Part shown: positions 18,331 through 24,941 of the stretch, one piece after another
How the letters are laid out: every line of letters starts with the position of its first letter
Numbering within the stretch: position 1 is the stretch's first letter
Source: an uncultured Chthonomonas sp.
GTDB taxonomy: Bacteria > Armatimonadota > Chthonomonadetes > Chthonomonadales > Chthonomonadaceae
Assembly (NCBI GenBank): GCA_903859705.1
Contig: CAIONQ010000163.1
Location: 62,001 to 126,000 of the forward strand
Direction of reading: 5' to 3'
Length of the DNA: 64,000 nt
Position numbers and translations under genes: made by a program
Notes under the pieces: model-generated
Databases searched by the model: none
The model's input: only the letters and a program-made list of their open reading frames with translations
What the model was told of the DNA's origin: nothing

Positions 18331-19038
18331 CTAACTATGGATGGCCGCAAACCTGCAGGCCACGCAGCAGTATCTGCCAAAGCCCGTGCCTCTGGGGTAG
18401 GGTTCGCCGCAATGTAAACAGGTGGATAGCTGCACGCCATCGATACGGCGTGCGGGTTTTCGGTAGATGGTGTGCCTTGAGTATAGAGTAAAGGTAATCG
18501 GCATAGAGTCGGAACACTTCAGCAATGCCCGTTTTAGTACCCCCGAAATAACCGCTCCGCCTTCGTTGCCATACGTATCCTTCCAGCGCGCAGCGCTCTC
18601 CTGCTGGGTCCAACCCAGCATCCAGGCCCGCAAAAAGAATCGTTCCCGCGCAGATAGGCATGATACGCTCATCAGGAAGCGGATGGCGTTAACAGTGGTT
18701 TCTGCTGGCCGCCAATCTGCCACGCTACCGGTTGTAATTTCCAGCCTGGTAGTTACACGTCCGCTAACCTTGCGCACAAGCTGTGTTTCGGTATAGGCAC
18801 GAAGCCCATGCTCTGGCCCGCCGCGCGCCGCATCCGCACAATGCAGCAAATAGTCGGCGTATCGTTCCTTTTCCGCCTCTTCCTCCTCCGTGCCAACGCA
18901 TCGCTTTGCCGGTGGGCATCGGTGCCTCAGCAAGGTATCTTCGCGTTCCCCATTCTCTGTTTGTAAATCGGCCGAGCCAGGCACATCCGCACTGTGCCAG
19001 CCCCTTCTTTCTGCACCCGGCTGCAAACGCGTTCTCAT
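18331..19038 (-). CDS. HTH plus C-terminal zinc-ribbon protein, unknown
   Basis: This 235-residue protein is not a family I recognise. Residues 1-60 are charged and low-complexity with an EEEEAEKE run. About 128-176 reads like a sigma-70 region-4-type helix-turn-helix (LSARERFFLRAWMLGWTQQE). The C-terminus has a zinc-ribbon: Cys207-x2-Cys210 in CLHCGEPY and Cys224/225-x2-Cys228 in YCCVACRF. The ATG at 19038 is chosen because AAAGGGCG lies eight bases upstream; an in-frame ATG 11 codons earlier lacks one. It lies 219 bases downstream of the pilus-like gene block on the same strand, so it could be part of or regulate that block. DNA-binding is inferred from the two motifs only. Confidence 0.6.
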   Translation of the reverse strand: MRTRLQPGAERRGWHSADVPGSADLQTENGEREDTLLRHRCPPAKRCVGTEEEEAEKERYADYLLHCADAARGGPEHGLRAYTETQLVRKVSGRVTTRLEITTGSVADWRPAETTVNAIRFLMSVSCLSARERFFLRAWMLGWTQQESAARWKDTYGNEGGAVISGVLKRALLKCSDSMPITFTLYSRHTIYRKPARRIDGVQLSTCLHCGEPYPRGTGFGRYCCVACRFAAIHS

Positions 19039-19256
19039 TATATTCGCCCTTTCGTCCCGTGTACTCAGCATAGAAAAATACGTTAACTGTACATTTGTCT
19101 ACTATATTTTACATGTGGTCAGAATATTTGTCAAATGGTTACAGAGAAATTTTTTGAGCTGGCTATGGGGGTATTCAGATTGCGCGGCAGGGGCTTGTGA
19201 AGTTTAATGCGATCCCAACTGTCAAACCAAGGGGGCTTCGTGCAGTCTATCTAGAA

Positions 19257-19751
19257 TCAATAACCTAAAGACTCCACTTTCCAAACAATATTTACGGAAT
19301 GTGACCCGGCTCGTACGCGGGCTGGGAGTGCACCGAGGCGGAACGTTATGTCACAACGACCACTCATCGGGTTTGCAAAACTCTCAAATACAGAATGGTA
19401 GCTAACATGATCAAGCGTGCCACTTACGCCGTTTCCGCCAATACTGCTTGAAACCTGCCATGTTACCAGGGATACCGGTATTTGTGTTCCACCTGGCCCA
19501 AGAAACGTTGCGGCGCTGGCTGCGGCAGAAAGCCGGAATGAATGGCCCGCAGTTAGATGGGCACCGGAATAGATCATGGTGGTTGGGCTGGGGGTGCCGG
19601 TGGTTGTGTTACGAACGTCATCTACATAAAACGACACTGCTGCTGGAACGTTGATGGTTATCGATTCGCCATCAGCCGCATGGGCTGGGCGCACTCCTAA
19701 ACCGCAAAAAACGCAAAGGCAGCAACTTGTAAATTTGAGTGCTTTAATCAA
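19257..19751 (-). CDS. pilin-like secreted subunit D (last gene of fibre locus)
   Basis: This 164-residue protein has a signal peptide ending PAHAADG and a beta-rich mature domain. It shares a general pattern with the three subunits encoded upstream. ITINVPAAVSFYVDDV matches their CDITVPTGITF segment, and the C-terminal strand GSHSVNIVWKVESLGY matches GNHTLALVWKVESIGS. It lacks the EQC motif and carries a cysteine later (GRCDITF). The divergence and its place after the usher-like gene would suit a tip or anchoring subunit, by analogy with chaperone-usher operons. The start is TTG at 19751 with AAGGAGG six bases upstream. Confidence 0.68.
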   Translation of the reverse strand: MIKALKFTSCCLCVFCGLGVRPAHAADGESITINVPAAVSFYVDDVRNTTTGTPSPTTMIYSGAHLTAGHSFRLSAAASAATFLGPGGTQIPVSLVTWQVSSSIGGNGVSGTLDHVSYHSVFESFANPMSGRCDITFRLGALPARVRAGSHSVNIVWKVESLGY

Positions 19752-19836
19752 CTGCTACCTCCTTCACCAGTCTTATCATACTCAATCGGGAATCTGGAGT
19801 CCAACACTTATCAATTCAACATGATATTGATTAAAC

Positions 19837-21855
19837 CTACTTTATTTCCTGAAACTCGATGGGGCGATCATGATATTCAATAACAAATAACAGCTCCGGC
19901 GCTGCGGCACTGGGGTCCAGGTTGTGTTCTATGGAGGCGGGAGTTATGGCTACGTATCCCATTGGAAGGCGCGGCTCATCCAGAAAAATGGTGTGCTTGC
20001 CGGGATCTACATTGTAAAATGCAAAACTGCCATCTTCTGCAGTAGCGGTTGCCCTATCACCCATTCGCAGTACAATTTTGCCCATCCCTTCACCATTATC
20101 CGCTTTTCCGTTGTGGTTCTTATCTACTATTACTCTGCCAAGGATTGCCCTCAGGGGTATTACGCGCATATCTGCCTTCACAATGGTGCGAGGCTTTATG
20201 CGAATTTCACGCGCGGTTGCATCTGAGCGGTAATCGGCAGAAAGCGATTCTGGATCTATCGCCAGTAAGTATCTCCCTTCTGGGAGGTTGAGGAATTTGT
20301 ACTGACCGTGCTCATCTGTTACGGCACGATAGTCTCCCAGTTTTACCACGGTTTGTTTCACCGGCTTCCCTGTTTGATCCACCACCGTGCCAACCATGCG
20401 TGAACCGTGGGCGGGCGTGTGCTCGTTAAAATGCGAGCGCAGCATAAACATAACACCGTTGGGGCTGGCATTGTAACTCGCGATTTGGTATGGCATAAGC
20501 CGGCCATACTCTACCGAGAGGGCAAGATCCGCGGATATGTTGTGGTTCACTCTTACCCGCATGCGGTCTGCTGCAAACAGCTCAGGAAATCCACTGATAA
20601 ACGGCAGATCGTAGCCCCTAAGTATGGATGTGCTGGCTACAACCTGAGACCATGTGGAGGCTCTGCTGCTTTGATCCCAACGCGTGGCGTTTTGCATTGT
20701 AAGCATTGTTTTGCGGCTGGGAGTGTAGCTGGCAGAAACAAGCAGTGATCGGCGCGATTGAAACAAAACAGTGGGTTGATCAGGAGTGGTAATAAACGAA
20801 ATTCCGCCAAGCTGGTACCGCATCTGAACATTCAACCCTCTAAATGGAAACGCAAGCGATACAGCGCTGCCTGTGGTAGTTGAAGTTAGTGTGGTTGTTC
20901 GCGTTTGTTCTGCACCAATGGAAACGTTGTTGCGTAGCGGAAAGGTTATGCCATAGGTACTGTTAATGCTTCGGCTCAGCAGGGTGGTGGTTTTGCTCGT
21001 GCCCGCAAAGCCAGATTGAGTTGTAACCTCATTGTTGTGGCTAAGGCCAGCATACAGGCTTATCCCGTGGCCCACATCAAGAACGATGGACCCACCTGCG
21101 CCAGATGCAAGCTTCTCTGGCCGCGTTTGATAGTTGGCAAACAGGCTCAAGTGCCTTCTAACTGTTTGCCCACGCAGTAGCAGGCTGCGGTCGCTTCCTA
21201 TCTCCCCGGCAAACTGTGTGGCTTTGTCAACAGTGATCTCGTTTCGATAAGATAGAACAGTATGCCTGGCACTGCCGGATTCCGTGGTGGCGAAGGCGCT
21301 TATAGATTGTGCGCTGCCACGCCGGGTAGCCAGGTTATATCGAACGCCATGCACCAGGCCACAGAGCTCGTTGTTGAGCTCTCCCGCGTGCAGTTGCCAG
21401 CCTACTTCTGGATCATACAGATCTAATCTGCCAGAAACCAGGCGGGATCCCAGCAGTCCCTGTGTTAGGAATGAGCTGAAATCTACCCGAGTGCCAGCGT
21501 AGCTTCCCGCTCCTGTGAGTTCCACTGCAGAATCTGCGCCCTGCACAAACCCGATGCCGAGCCCAAAACGGATGTTCTCAAAAGCCGGCGGCAACCGCTC
21601 CTCATGCGGCAGTGGTGGGGTTGTGCTGGAACCCAGCATTGCCGACTGGTGCTCTGCCAGTTCGCTATCACTCATCCGCTGGTTGAAGGTTTCCAGTGTG
21701 TCTGGGCCTCCTGCGGGTGGATTCACCGGGCGAGTTGTTCCCTGGGCGAGGCACGCTGCTGCTGTAGACCCAATCAGGATCGTGCTGCAAAACAGCGCAA
21801 GCCGTGCTCGCTTAGCGGCCCTTACCAGCCTCCGGTTGTATGCCAGATGTTCCAT
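19837..21855 (-). CDS. outer-membrane beta-barrel protein, usher-like
   Basis: This 672-residue protein has an Arg-rich n-region and hydrophobic signal to about residue 38. Residues about 90-480 are a long run of amphipathic beta strands with alternating polar and hydrophobic residues, typical of an outer-membrane barrel. Two Ig-like modules follow: a carboxypeptidase-regulatory-like domain (about 487-560, MVGTVVDQTGKPVKQTVVKL) and an SdrD-B-like domain (about 583-650, VIVDKNHNGKADNGEGMGK with a Ca-binding look). FimD-type ushers also end in two Ig-like domains, but clear FimD sequence identity is not visible. The start at 21855 overlaps the chaperone gene by 44 bases, implying coupled translation. 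The usher role is inferred from context and architecture. Confidence 0.66.
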   Translation of the reverse strand: MEHLAYNRRLVRAAKRARLALFCSTILIGSTAAACLAQGTTRPVNPPAGGPDTLETFNQRMSDSELAEHQSAMLGSSTTPPLPHEERLPPAFENIRFGLGIGFVQGADSAVELTGAGSYAGTRVDFSSFLTQGLLGSRLVSGRLDLYDPEVGWQLHAGELNNELCGLVHGVRYNLATRRGSAQSISAFATTESGSARHTVLSYRNEITVDKATQFAGEIGSDRSLLLRGQTVRRHLSLFANYQTRPEKLASGAGGSIVLDVGHGISLYAGLSHNNEVTTQSGFAGTSKTTTLLSRSINSTYGITFPLRNNVSIGAEQTRTTTLTSTTTGSAVSLAFPFRGLNVQMRYQLGGISFITTPDQPTVLFQSRRSLLVSASYTPSRKTMLTMQNATRWDQSSRASTWSQVVASTSILRGYDLPFISGFPELFAADRMRVRVNHNISADLALSVEYGRLMPYQIASYNASPNGVMFMLRSHFNEHTPAHGSRMVGTVVDQTGKPVKQTVVKLGDYRAVTDEHGQYKFLNLPEGRYLLAIDPESLSADYRSDATAREIRIKPRTIVKADMRVIPLRAILGRVIVDKNHNGKADNGEGMGKIVLRMGDRATATAEDGSFAFYNVDPGKHTIFLDEPRLPMGYVAITPASIEHNLDPSAAAPELLFVIEYHDRPIEFQEIK

Positions 21856-22663
21856 GGACTATATCCATCGTTTTCTGCGCACCAATGTAGTGCGTTAAGC
21901 CTATATCCAGCACTGCGCGTACCAGGTACTTACCGTTGGGCAGCTGCGCTGTCTCAGGCAGAGGAGCCGTAATGATAATTGTGTTAATCGGTTCAGGCAA
22001 CACTGTGGTGCGGGCCAACTTTACAGTTGCAATGGGCTTCGTTGTATCGGATGGCGCATAGAACTCAATACGCCCCTCAATCCCGAGGGGACAATTGCCC
22101 TCGTTAACTACTTTAAGCTCCGTATCAGTGCCATTGCCAGATAACTGCAGAATTTTTGCATTGCGATCTACGGGCGTAATGCTGATGAAAATGCCAACAG
22201 ATACCGATGCTGTAAACACAACCCCAACGCCCTGTGGTGCTGTTTTAAGTGGGTCGGCAACTTCATCAACCGTTAGTGCACACCAGTATCCACCAGATTT
22301 GATATCGGCAGGTACCACGGTTGAAATGCGTACCGTAAGTGTTTCACCTGGCCCAATAGCGGCTTCGGCAGGATTTAGAGTTATCCAGCTTGCGCATGAG
22401 TGCTTAATGGAGCCGGCTGGCCGATAAAAGGATTGTTTGCCGTCTTCACTGCGCCACCAGTCTTCAAGGTGGGCCTTAAACTGTGTCTTTTTCTCACCCT
22501 TATCTAAAGTGAGATGGTAGGCCCGGGTTACTACTTGGCCGGGCTGTGCCTCAATCTTAATTGAATTCATATCGGAGTGAAACTTGAGCGCCTGTGATTT
22601 TACCGGGCAAATCAACACCAGAGCCACAGCCAGTGCGGATATCGTTTTTAAACAAAGGTTCAT
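21812..22663 (-). CDS. PapD-like periplasmic chaperone
   Basis: This 283-residue protein has a signal peptide (MNLCLKTISALAVALVLICP, cleavage near SQA) and two Ig-like beta domains. The first (about residues 28-150) shows IKIEAQPGQVVTRAYHLTL, then WITLNPAEAAIGPGETLTVR and SGGYWCALTV. That order is seen in fimbrial-chaperone-like proteins that donate a strand to subunits. The second domain (about 155-265) has LKVVNEGNCPLGIEG and PNGKYLVRAVLDIG. The ATG at 22663 has AGGAG eight bases upstream; the longer open frame above it is not coding-like. It lies between subunit C and the usher-like gene and overlaps the latter. Classification as a subunit chaperone is inference from fold pattern and position. 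Confidence 0.68.
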   Translation of the reverse strand: MNLCLKTISALAVALVLICPVKSQALKFHSDMNSIKIEAQPGQVVTRAYHLTLDKGEKKTQFKAHLEDWWRSEDGKQSFYRPAGSIKHSCASWITLNPAEAAIGPGETLTVRISTVVPADIKSGGYWCALTVDEVADPLKTAPQGVGVVFTASVSVGIFISITPVDRNAKILQLSGNGTDTELKVVNEGNCPLGIEGRIEFYAPSDTTKPIATVKLARTTVLPEPINTIIITAPLPETAQLPNGKYLVRAVLDIGLTHYIGAQKTMDIVHGTSGIQPEAGKGR

Positions 22664-22681
22664 AGTATTAACTCCTGTTTT

Positions 22682-22709
22682 GGGCTCGCACCAGTTACGG
22701 TGCGAGCCC
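22682..22709 (-). terminator. intergenic hairpin between subunit C and chaperone
   Basis: A perfect 11-bp GC-rich stem pairs 22682-22692 with 22699-22709 (GGGCTCGCACC / GGTGCGAGCCC) around a 6-base loop. On the minus strand it is followed by AAAACAGGAG, the chaperone ribosome site, not by a T tract. It is therefore more likely an attenuator, processing or stabilising element than a full terminator. Confidence 0.65.
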
Positions 22710-22727
22710 GATCTGTCAATCCTTAGC

Positions 22728-23321
22728 TTAGCCACCGCCGCCTTCGCCACCGTCCATGCACTCCACCTTCCAGGTGAGAGCAAGAACATAGTTTCCAGAA
22801 CGTTTAACGTTCGTGTTGGCTGCAAGTGTAAAATGCAAAGTTGACGTTGAGAACGCGGCTGCATCGGCTTGCCCAATCGCCACTGGTTTGTATGACGATT
22901 GAGACAATGTACCGGATTGGCCCGTTGCTCCACTCCAGGAAGTACCGGCATCCCATGTAACGGCACCGGCACTCCACGTAGAGGCACCGGAAACGGAAGG
23001 TGTGAACTGGGAACTTGCCGCCTTTACCGAAACCCGAACCACCCGGCTTGCACTGGAGGTAACGATGTTTGTAACTGTTAGAGAAACAGCGGTAACAGCT
23101 GGCGTTGGATCCGAGATATCACCAACGTTGAACGCGACTGAACTGGGTACTGTTATGTCGCACTGTTCGTAAACATGCGCTGTAAACGATGTGCCGTTCA
23201 GTTCGTTAGCATGAGATGTTATGTCTGTTGATGTCTGCGCGCTGCAATTTGAGAGCGAAAGCGAAAGGCAGATACCAACAGCAAAGATACATGAAGCGAA
23301 GGATTTTGTGATGTGTACCAT
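22728..23321 (-). CDS. pilin-like secreted subunit C
   Basis: This 197-residue protein is a paralog of subunits A and B. It has a signal peptide to about residue 29 (ICLSLSLSNCSAQ), the shared DITSHANELNGTSFTAHVY and EQCDITVPSSVAFNVGDISD segments, and the C-terminal strand GNYVLALTWKVEC. Unlike A and B it ends MDGGEGGGG, so the last cysteine and poly-Gly tail are unusual. Two adjacent ATG codons follow GGAGG; the second (23321) is at five bases and is preferred. A single cysteine after EQ is shared by A, B and C. It is probably a fibre subunit that receives its chaperone from the next gene. Confidence 0.7.
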   Translation of the reverse strand: MVHITKSFASCIFAVGICLSLSLSNCSAQTSTDITSHANELNGTSFTAHVYEQCDITVPSSVAFNVGDISDPTPAVTAVSLTVTNIVTSSASRVVRVSVKAASSQFTPSVSGASTWSAGAVTWDAGTSWSGATGQSGTLSQSSYKPVAIGQADAAAFSTSTLHFTLAANTNVKRSGNYVLALTWKVECMDGGEGGGG

Positions 23322-23412
23322 CATGTCCTCCGAGATAGAATGGGCCGCCAATTAAACTGGCAACACCGTTAGTTGGTAGCAAATCCGTTTGAAATTGTTA
23401 TGCAACTCGGTA

Positions 23413-23450
23413 TTTGTGGGCAGATATGCGTAAGCACACCTGCCCACAAA
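23413..23450 (-). terminator. hairpin downstream of subunit B
   Basis: Stem arms TTTGTGGGCAG (23413-23423) and CTGCCCACAAA (23440-23450) pair over 11 bp around a 16-base loop, between the subunit B stop and the subunit C start. There is no strong T tract after it on the minus strand, so it may only partly terminate. Confidence 0.6.
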
Positions 23451-23478
23451 CGGGGCGGCAATACCGCTACGCTAACGC

Positions 23479-24036
23479 TTAGCTGCCGATCGATTCAACT
23501 TTCCATACCATCGCCAGAGTGTGGTTGCCAGAGCGCTTTACTGTGGTGTTGGCTGCCAGGGTGAACTTCAGGGTTGTGGTTGAGAACGAAGCAGTATCTG
23601 CTGCGCCAGTTGCCACGGCATTGTATGCAGAGCTGGAAAGCGTGCCGGCTGCACCGGTTGCGCTCGTCCATGAAGTACCGTTGTCCCAGGATACATCGCC
23701 TGCCGACCACGTTGCTGCGCCTACTACGGAGGGCGTAAAGCTCGCCGCAGAAGCCTGGATGGAGATCTTCAACTGCTTCGTTGCAGTTGCAAGCACGATG
23801 TTGTTTACACTAACCGAGGCATTGGAAGCAATGGTAGGATCCGAGATGTCGCCAACGTTAAAGGTAATGCCGGTTGGGACAGTGATATCGCACTGCTCGT
23901 AAACATTGGCCGTGAGCGTAGTTCCGGTTAGCTCATTGGCATGGCCGGTGATATCCGTCTGAGCGAAGACCACCGAGGATGTTGCTACAAATAGTCCGAT
24001 TGCAGCAAGGCATGTCGCGATACGTGTGAGTTTCAT
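23479..24036 (-). CDS. pilin-like secreted subunit B
   Basis: This 185-residue protein has a clear signal peptide (MKLTRIATCLAAIGLFVATS, cleavage near VFAQ). The mature protein is Thr/Ser/Ala-rich and beta-structured: DITGHANELTGTTLTANVY, EQCDITVPTGITFNVGDISD, GTLSSSAYNAVATGAADTAS, and the C-terminal strand RSGNHTLAMVWKVESIGS. That strand has the alternating hydrophobic pattern after a glycine seen in donor-strand-type pilins. It differs from subunit A at about 15 of 185 positions by eye. The ATG at 24036 has AAGGAGAG four bases upstream. It is likely a major fibre subunit; this is inference from its neighbours. Confidence 0.72.
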   Translation of the reverse strand: MKLTRIATCLAAIGLFVATSSVVFAQTDITGHANELTGTTLTANVYEQCDITVPTGITFNVGDISDPTIASNASVSVNNIVLATATKQLKISIQASAASFTPSVVGAATWSAGDVSWDNGTSWTSATGAAGTLSSSAYNAVATGAADTASFSTTTLKFTLAANTTVKRSGNHTLAMVWKVESIGS

Positions 24037-24163
24037 TGCACTCTCCTTATGCAACCTCTAATCGGGTTGCCTGAAGCGAGCTCCGATACGGTGCAGCTCT
24101 GCATTGTCCTGCCTCTGCATGCTGATCTTAGTGTGCCCGTTTCAATTATTACTATATCTTCTT
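23479..24163 (-). repeat. tandem duplication, copy 1 (subunit B and leader)
   Basis: The gene and its 127-base upstream leader match copy 2 (24384-25068) over exactly 685 bases with no indels seen. The match ends with a shared AT-rich block around CAATTATTACTATATCTTCT. Confidence 0.8.
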
Positions 24164-24315
24164 ATACACAGGACAATCATCTGCAGATTGGCATATTTTG
24201 CTACATCTTCAACACATTATTGATTGCAGAGGAAGACAATTGCTGTGCCAGTAAATCCAAGAGACGTAGGATTTCGGCCGAACAAGGATAATCTTCCTTG
24301 CCCGCGCTACCGGTA

Positions 24316-24353
24316 AATAAAATGGGCAGGTGTACCAGAAGGTACACCTGCCC
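24316..24353 (-). terminator. rho-independent terminator after subunit A
   Basis: A perfect 13-bp stem pairs 24324-24336 with 24341-24353 (GGGCAGGTGTACC / GGTACACCTGCCC) with loop AGAA. On the minus strand ATTTTATTT follows. It lies 31 bases past the subunit A stop, so most A transcripts probably end here. Confidence 0.85.
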
Positions 24354-24383
24354 AAAAGGCAATTAGAATAACAGCAAGGCTAT

Positions 24384-24941
24384 TTAACTGCCGATCGATT
24401 CAACTTTCCATACCAGGGCCAGCGTGTGGTTGCCAGAGCGCTTTACAGTGGTCTTGGCAGCCAGTGTGAACTTCAGGCTCGTGGTGGAGAAAGATGCGCT
24501 ATCTGCTGCGCCAGTTGCCACGGCATTGTAAGTCGAGCTGGAAAGCGTGCCGGCTGCACCGGTTGCGCTTGTCCATGAGGTACCGTTGTCCCAGGATACA
24601 TCGCCTGCAGACCACGTTGTGGCTCCGACCACCGAAGGTGTGAAGCTGGATGCGGCCGCTTCGATAGAGATGCGCAGCTGCTTCGTTGCAGTTGCAAGCA
24701 CGATGTTGGTTACGCTAACCGAGGCATTGGAAGCAATGGTAGGATCCGAGATGTCGCCAACATCAAACGTAATGCCGGTTGGGACAGTGATATCGCACTG
24801 CTCGTACACATTTGCCGTGAGCGTAGTTCCGGTTAGCTCATTGGCATGGCTGGTGATATCCACTTGAGCGAAAACCACCGAGGATGTTGCTACAAATAGT
24901 CCGATTGCAGCAAGGCATGTCCCGATTCGTGTGAGTTTCAT
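24384..24941 (-). CDS. pilin-like secreted subunit A
   Basis: This 185-residue protein is a near-duplicate of subunit B with the same signal peptide (MKLTRIGTCLAAIGLFVATS) and domain pattern: DITSHANELTGTTLTANVY, EQCDITVPTGITFDVGDISD and RSGNHTLALVWKVESIGS. Most of the roughly 15 changes are conservative (K/R, Q/E, A/S, T/S). The ATG at 24941 follows AAGGAGAG. It is the first gene of the fibre block, has its own leader and a strong terminator, and so may be expressed at the highest level. I do not recognise a named family; the EQCDITV...FxVGDIsDP segment loosely recalls spore-coat-U-like pilins, which is only a suggestion. Confidence 0.72.
   Translation of the reverse strand: MKLTRIGTCLAAIGLFVATSSVVFAQVDITSHANELTGTTLTANVYEQCDITVPTGITFDVGDISDPTIASNASVSVTNIVLATATKQLRISIEAAASSFTPSVVGATTWSAGDVSWDNGTSWTSATGAAGTLSSSTYNAVATGAADSASFSTTSLKFTLAAKTTVKRSGNHTLALVWKVESIGS

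Follow-up and report, generated by a model that had tools for sequence, protein, structure and literature searches.

Among bacterial fibres, chaperone-usher pili have been studied best. In donor-strand exchange the tip subunit is the sole subunit able to do without an N-terminal extension, and the barrel of ushers contains a plug domain, which interrupts it between strands 6 and 7. In classical chaperones the C-terminal carboxylate of the subunit is held by two basic residues, Arg8 and Lys112 (PapD numbering). Archaic and alternative chaperones use instead the nearly invariant Arg89 (CsuC) of strand F1 (PMC4654587). Here we describe a six-gene operon in a stretch of 64,000 nucleotides (the window) from contig CAIONQ010000163.1 of an uncultured Chthonomonas sp. 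(Armatimonadota; assembly GCA_903859705.1). Based on its layout, the homology of its chaperone, its usher-like barrel and the logic of its subunits, the operon very probably encodes a chaperone-usher system of a divergent branch. The system is outside the classical, alternative and archaic classes, because each of them has a defining feature that the system, when tested, lacked; it represents a diverged form of the chaperone-usher pathway rather than a kind of its own. The initial annotation had proposed a distant or new fibre assembly system outside the known types. Its divergence was supported, but the system belongs inside the chaperone-usher superfamily, because profiles link its chaperone to archaic chaperones. 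The host genome encodes Omp85, and the host is therefore considered to be diderm.

All six open reading frames (ORFs) were confirmed at 19257-24941 on the minus strand with their coordinates unchanged, and they are transcribed in the order S1, S2, S3, chaperone, barrel, T1. The features, all on the minus strand, are as follows.

24384-24941, minus strand: subunit S1, 185 amino acids (aa) from ATG, with a signal peptide, an N-terminal extension of about 23 residues and a beta-rich domain
within 24384-24941, minus strand: C-terminal strand of S1, GNHTLALVWKVE, read from the ORF; S1 is homologous to pilin set pA/pT
24798-24866, minus strand: N-terminal extension of S1, QVDITSHANELTGTTLTANVYEQ, the proposed donor strand, between the predicted signal-peptide cleavage and the conserved CDITVP
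23479-24036, minus strand: subunit S2, 185 aa, tandem duplicate of S1, N-terminal extension present
22728-23324, minus strand: subunit S3, 198 aa, with a 25-residue N-terminal extension and a Gly-rich tail beyond the WKVE strand; aligned with relatives
21812-22663, minus strand: periplasmic chaperone, 283 aa, two predicted immunoglobulin (Ig)-like domains (model, Foldseek/VIA, hhalign, residue tally)
19837-21855, minus strand: usher-like outer-membrane barrel protein, 672 aa (structure model and Foldseek)
21655-21702, minus strand: linear motif near the N-terminus of the barrel protein (residues 52-67), kept in the alignment of relatives, of putative function
20413-21582, minus strand: predicted 24-strand beta barrel, residues 92-481 (DSSP of the model)
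19873-20403, minus strand: two C-terminal beta-sandwich domains, residues 485-661, CarboxypepD_reg / SdrD_B-like (Pfam, model, hhalign)
19257-19751, minus strand: tip-type subunit T1 of 164 aa, with a TTG start preceded by AAGGAGG; a homologue of S1-S3

The chaperone and barrel genes share exactly 44 bases, as first reported, and similar overlaps or 4-base ATGA overlaps were seen repeatedly at the chaperone/barrel junctions of relatives. The same gene order, which the initial annotation had proposed to seek in other genomes, was found in many of them: the chaperone and barrel genes are adjacent in at least 27 Armatimonadota genomes from 14 families, and a search with the chaperone alone recovered relatives throughout the phylum. 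The recurring layout comprises one or more exported beta-rich subunits, a chaperone of about 280 aa, a barrel protein of 650-970 aa with CarboxypepD_reg/SdrD_B domains near its C-terminal end, and often a further subunit. Four operon types were distinguished, A (the window type), B, C and D (family f15); the hosts of type D are called Fimbriimonadaceae-like as a guess from family f15. Related operons also occur on Deinococcus plasmids, and relatives of type D on proteobacterial plasmids. A peptide-pattern scan of genome contigs gave five Armatimonadota loci, with patterns so strict that the scan says nothing on absence elsewhere. The Pfam models of known systems (PF00345, PapD_N; PF00577, Usher) had no match in the window's own genome, and G228 was the only one of the 291 Armatimonadota genomes in which they reached the cut-off. 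On a short contig of G228, a metagenome-assembled genome with 6% contamination, lies a canonical chaperone-usher operon of the archaic type (L069, G228:C105); it may represent contamination or transfer.

Judged from its structure model, the chaperone belongs to the PapD superfamily of periplasmic chaperones and has two Ig-fold domains. The model has two beta-sandwich domains (predicted local distance difference test, pLDDT, 75), and its closest solved folds were WxLIP, CsuC, FimC, PapD and Caf1M (Foldseek, VIA). Thus, the reading of the 283-residue protein as a two-Ig chaperone agrees with the model, whose fold matches CsuC, FimC and PapD. The N-domain of CsuC superimposed with a VIA Z of 11.8 and a root-mean-square deviation (rmsd) of 2.9 across 116 residues at 22% identity; FimC, PapD and Caf1M followed closely. 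Pfam and NCBIfam gave no usable identification of the chaperone, and its profile had no significant match among PDB sequences. When compared with eight archaic chaperones, however, the profile of the window chaperone gave an hhalign value of 98.0% over 220 columns, against 97.5% for archaic versus classical chaperones and 96.4% for archaic versus alternative ones. Therefore, kinship with the archaic class is as detectable for the window chaperone as it is for the other known classes. In the chaperone tree, all these chaperones formed one clade (support 97/94) apart from the archaic, classical and alternative rows, and type A was supported by 100/100; the deep order of this tree is uncertain because the known classes have long branches.

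In structural comparison the chaperone matched WxLIP best (9i25; Foldseek E 3.3e-11, VIA Z 11.9), tied with CsuC. This raises the alternative that the locus is a diderm counterpart of the Gram-positive WxL systems, in which a WxLIP-like scaffold would keep WxL-like surface proteins attached to the cell and the barrel would just export or anchor them, with no polymer formed. PF06030 (WxLIP_PGBD) weakly matched four of the 14 chaperone relatives (E 0.001 at best), which points the same way, as does the subunit end of one relative, TWKLESVVP, which resembles the WxL distal motif. We nevertheless consider this alternative very unlikely, since WxLIP and CsuC tie in Z, the WxL domain (PF13731) had no match in S1-S3, T1 or their relatives, and the alternative leaves no place for the extension split among subunits described below, the FimD-like barrel or the sequence link to archaic chaperones.

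The subunits S1-S3 and T1 had no significant Pfam or NCBIfam match. All four had been said to share the C-terminal pattern GxHxxxxxWKVE; it is exact in S1, S2 and T1, but in S3 Tyr replaces His (GNYVLALTWKVE). The pattern is not a chance motif, because the upstream subunits and the downstream subunit T1 are homologous over their full length (hhalign 99.8%, E 3.7e-28). S1 and S2 share 89% DNA identity across 733 bp, with 33 synonymous versus 15 non-synonymous codon differences, and judging from these sequences purifying selection acts on this tandem duplicate. The stretch from the signal peptide to the conserved CDITVP has 23-25 residues in S1-S3 and about five in T1, and hydrophobic residues alternate in the extension of S1-S3 (TTLTANV). 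Measured from the cleavage site to the ITVP anchor, the distance is about 25-30 residues in extended subunits versus 4-7 in the tip type, and relatives show this split as well. The automatic signal-peptide cut misplaced a few sequences, and L035_5, L039_8, L039_9 and the last rows were assigned by eye. In fully readable operons the extended subunits precede the chaperone and the single extension-less subunit usually follows the barrel gene; in L039 it stands before the chaperone. Since only the tip subunit can dispense with an extension in donor-strand exchange, this split is the strongest sequence evidence for the mechanism.

The barrel protein was modelled from five sequences (pLDDT 71), giving 24 strands in residues 92-481 and C-terminal domains in residues 485-661. 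The top 11 Foldseek matches of the model were all FimD/PapC ushers (best E 3.7e-15). The two Ig-like domains proposed at its end were recovered by Pfam, as CarboxypepD_reg and SdrD_B, as well as in the model; they aligned to the C-terminal domains (CTDs) of archaic ushers (hhalign 96.6%), and this beta-sandwich pair is equivalent to usher CTD1/CTD2. With archaic ushers, the barrels of type D and of the proteobacterial operons could be aligned at 97% in about 470-520 columns that include the plug region; thus, the wider barrel family represents ushers. An usher arrangement had been expected of the window barrel, and it held for the best matches to FimD and PapC and for the C-terminal Ig pair, but not for the plug insertion.

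Several observations weigh against the interpretation of the locus as a chaperone-usher system. In VIA-align, TonB receptors (Z 18.7, rmsd 4.2, 336 aligned) scored as high as FimD (Z 17.4, rmsd 7.6, 343 aligned), and the barrel match by itself therefore lacks specificity. Considering that CarboxypepD_reg/SdrD_B domains are also found in many unrelated surface proteins, the locus could be an operon for a transporter akin to porins or TonB receptors and for Ig-like binding proteins of the periplasm, its usher likeness reflecting generic barrel and Ig folds. This is highly improbable, because the first 11 Foldseek matches were FimD/PapC only and because a PapD-superfamily chaperone and multiple pilin-like subunits constantly accompany the barrel. 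Returning to the chaperone-usher interpretation, the window-type barrel matched archaic ushers by profile in the C-terminal domains only. Strand 6 ends at residue 176 and strand 7 starts at 184, seven residues apart in the model, and in the alignment of five ushers no insertion of the size of a domain was present, either between these two strands or at any other place; judging from the model, the window-type usher seems to have no room for a plug. A folded usher N-domain is also absent, with about 54 low-confidence residues between the signal peptide and the barrel. Moreover, the structure models were built on 5-6 sequences (pLDDT 71 and 75, predicted template modelling score about 0.5), two-domain superpositions gave an rmsd near 17 Å, and window-type subunit profiles had no link to classical or archaic pilin profiles. 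The B- and D-type subunit profiles do link to archaic subunits at the N-terminus, which is possibly driven by the signal peptide. In the window chaperone, Ser and Gly occupy the PapD Arg8 and Lys112 alignment columns and Trp127 the archaic Arg89 position. Finally, the fibre and its secretion are predictions from genes and modelled structures.

The anchor residues follow the operon types. In window-type chaperones the Arg8 column holds Ser (or Thr/Asn/Pro) and the Lys112 column Gly (or Asn), while the Arg89 position is Trp in all A, C and Deinococcus chaperones and Arg in the B, D and proteobacterial ones. The subunit tails beyond the WKVE strand also vary, S3 terminating in GGEGGGG. Because the anchor residues are replaced and these tails are variable, the chaperone would recognise the WKVE strand, not a fixed carboxylate. 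The locus could also be a true archaic (sigma) system that has diverged past the Pfam models, which would differ from our interpretation in class and not in mechanism. Although its closest profile links are to archaic chaperones and usher C-terminal domains, we regard this as unlikely: the chaperone clade excludes the archaic rows together with the classical and alternative ones, Arg89 is replaced by Trp in 8/8 A-type chaperones, and SCPU (PF05229) matched no subunit of the window or its relatives. Nor does any subunit show the two-cysteine layout of spore-coat-U pilins, as had been observed.

The analysis computed genes, homology, conserved order, predicted folds and the extension/no-extension split, and the following mechanism is proposed for the divergent chaperone-usher system. 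S1-S3 and T1 would be exported as incomplete Ig-like domains, to which the two-Ig chaperone would lend its G1 strand in the periplasm. The chaperone would then deliver them to the 672-aa outer-membrane barrel, the putative usher relative, for secretion through it, and the N-terminal extension of each incoming subunit would replace the chaperone strand in the previous one by donor-strand exchange. T1 would be the first subunit, at the fibre tip, because without an extension it can only come first; S1/S2 (and S3) would form the shaft. The motif DGWxxLxIxKSxxE, kept ahead of the barrel in relatives of the window type, may serve as a chaperone-docking tail. The purpose of the fibre could be adhesion or biofilm formation.

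The barrels of four relatives (L036, L037, L040, L041) possess an extra N-terminal Cu_amine_oxidN1-like domain (PF07833) that is not in the window copy. It was detected with E 3.5e-6 in L036, weakly in L041, and by alignment in L037 and L040, and is a candidate replacement of the usher N-domain. Armatimonadota also encode proteins of about 530-610 aa that consist of two tandem chaperone copies (L074, L115, L118, L119, L125, L072, L116, L117, L120, L121 and L122). In the first five of these loci a secretin gene (PF00263, E 1e-31 to 1e-45) adjoins the tandem chaperone, often with a small exported beta-rich protein alongside; these cassettes fall in the same chaperone clade. A bolder hypothesis, to which we give somewhat less than even odds, is a fourth chaperone-usher class spanning Armatimonadota and Deinococcota. 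In such a class, fibres would be built by an usher without a plug and a chaperone lacking the carboxylate anchor (Trp for Arg), while sister tandem chaperones would work with a secretin instead of an usher; ushers, secretins and Gram-positive WxLIP scaffolds would thereby be linked.

On Deinococcus plasmids (L126, L127, L128), the operon has four genes, encoding a subunit-like protein of about 292 aa, a chaperone, a subunit-like protein of about 190 aa and a barrel of 1013-1090 aa, nearly all annotated as hypothetical. In type D operons (L071, L111-L114, L136-L138) the subunits are DUF4402 (PF14352) proteins, which suggests that DUF4402 has a pilin function. The proteobacterial plasmid operons are annotated as 'DUF4402 domain-containing protein - molecular chaperone - carboxypeptidase-like regulatory domain-containing protein'. 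Two large signalling-type proteins directly follow the type C usher genes (L051, L108), one of them apparently ending in a response-regulator receiver domain (by eye), which suggests regulation or surface sensing in type C. In the window itself, a 246-aa ORF downstream of the operon (18331-19071, minus strand) has, by eye, a stretch resembling sigma region 4 and, at its C-terminus, a Cys cluster like that of a zinc finger; it had no Pfam match and could be a regulator.

The current models PF00345, PF00577 and SCPU miss this chaperone-usher branch. In the literature we found no paper pairing chaperone-usher systems with Armatimonadota, none mentioning DUF4402, and no title or abstract describing a plug-less usher. 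The Fimbriimonas genome paper ascribed fimbriae to type IV pili and did not mention an usher (PMC4072686); Fimbriimonadaceae-like genomes carry the type D version of the operon. Our results suggest that DUF4402 proteins, and many 'carboxypeptidase-like regulatory' proteins too, function in pili. Should the usher truly be plug-less, the closure of a wide secretion pore becomes directly testable on a natural variant.

Compared with classical pili (FimC/FimD, PapD/PapC), the window system has in common a predicted 24-strand barrel, two C-terminal beta-sandwich domains and an extension-less tip. It differs in having Ser/Gly at Arg8/Lys112, in the lack of a plug and of a folded usher N-domain in the window copy, and in the absence of a sequence-profile link. 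With archaic (sigma) pili such as Csu (CsuC/CsuD, spore-coat-U subunits) it shares the subunit-chaperone-usher-tip layout, the chaperone fold and profile, the usher C-terminal domains and the N-terminal donor-strand layout, whereas it has no PF00345, PF00577 or SCPU match, Trp in place of Arg89, no plug insertion, a single-domain tip-type subunit and no two-cysteine layout. The DUF4402 operons of Proteobacteria and Fimbriimonadaceae-like Armatimonadota, for whose subunit-chaperone-'carboxypeptidase-like regulatory' arrangement we found no published name, have the same gene order and chaperones in the same supported clade, and their barrel proteins are annotated solely by CarboxypepD_reg domains. 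In contrast to the window system, they keep Arg89, a plug region aligned to archaic ushers and DUF4402 subunits. The WxL/WxLIP clusters of Gram-positive bacteria contain, in WxLIP, the solved fold closest to that of the window chaperone, though tied with CsuC, and a Trp in the subunit C-terminal strand is common to both. The window system differs from them in lacking a WxL domain match and a cell-wall context and in possessing an usher-like outer-membrane barrel.

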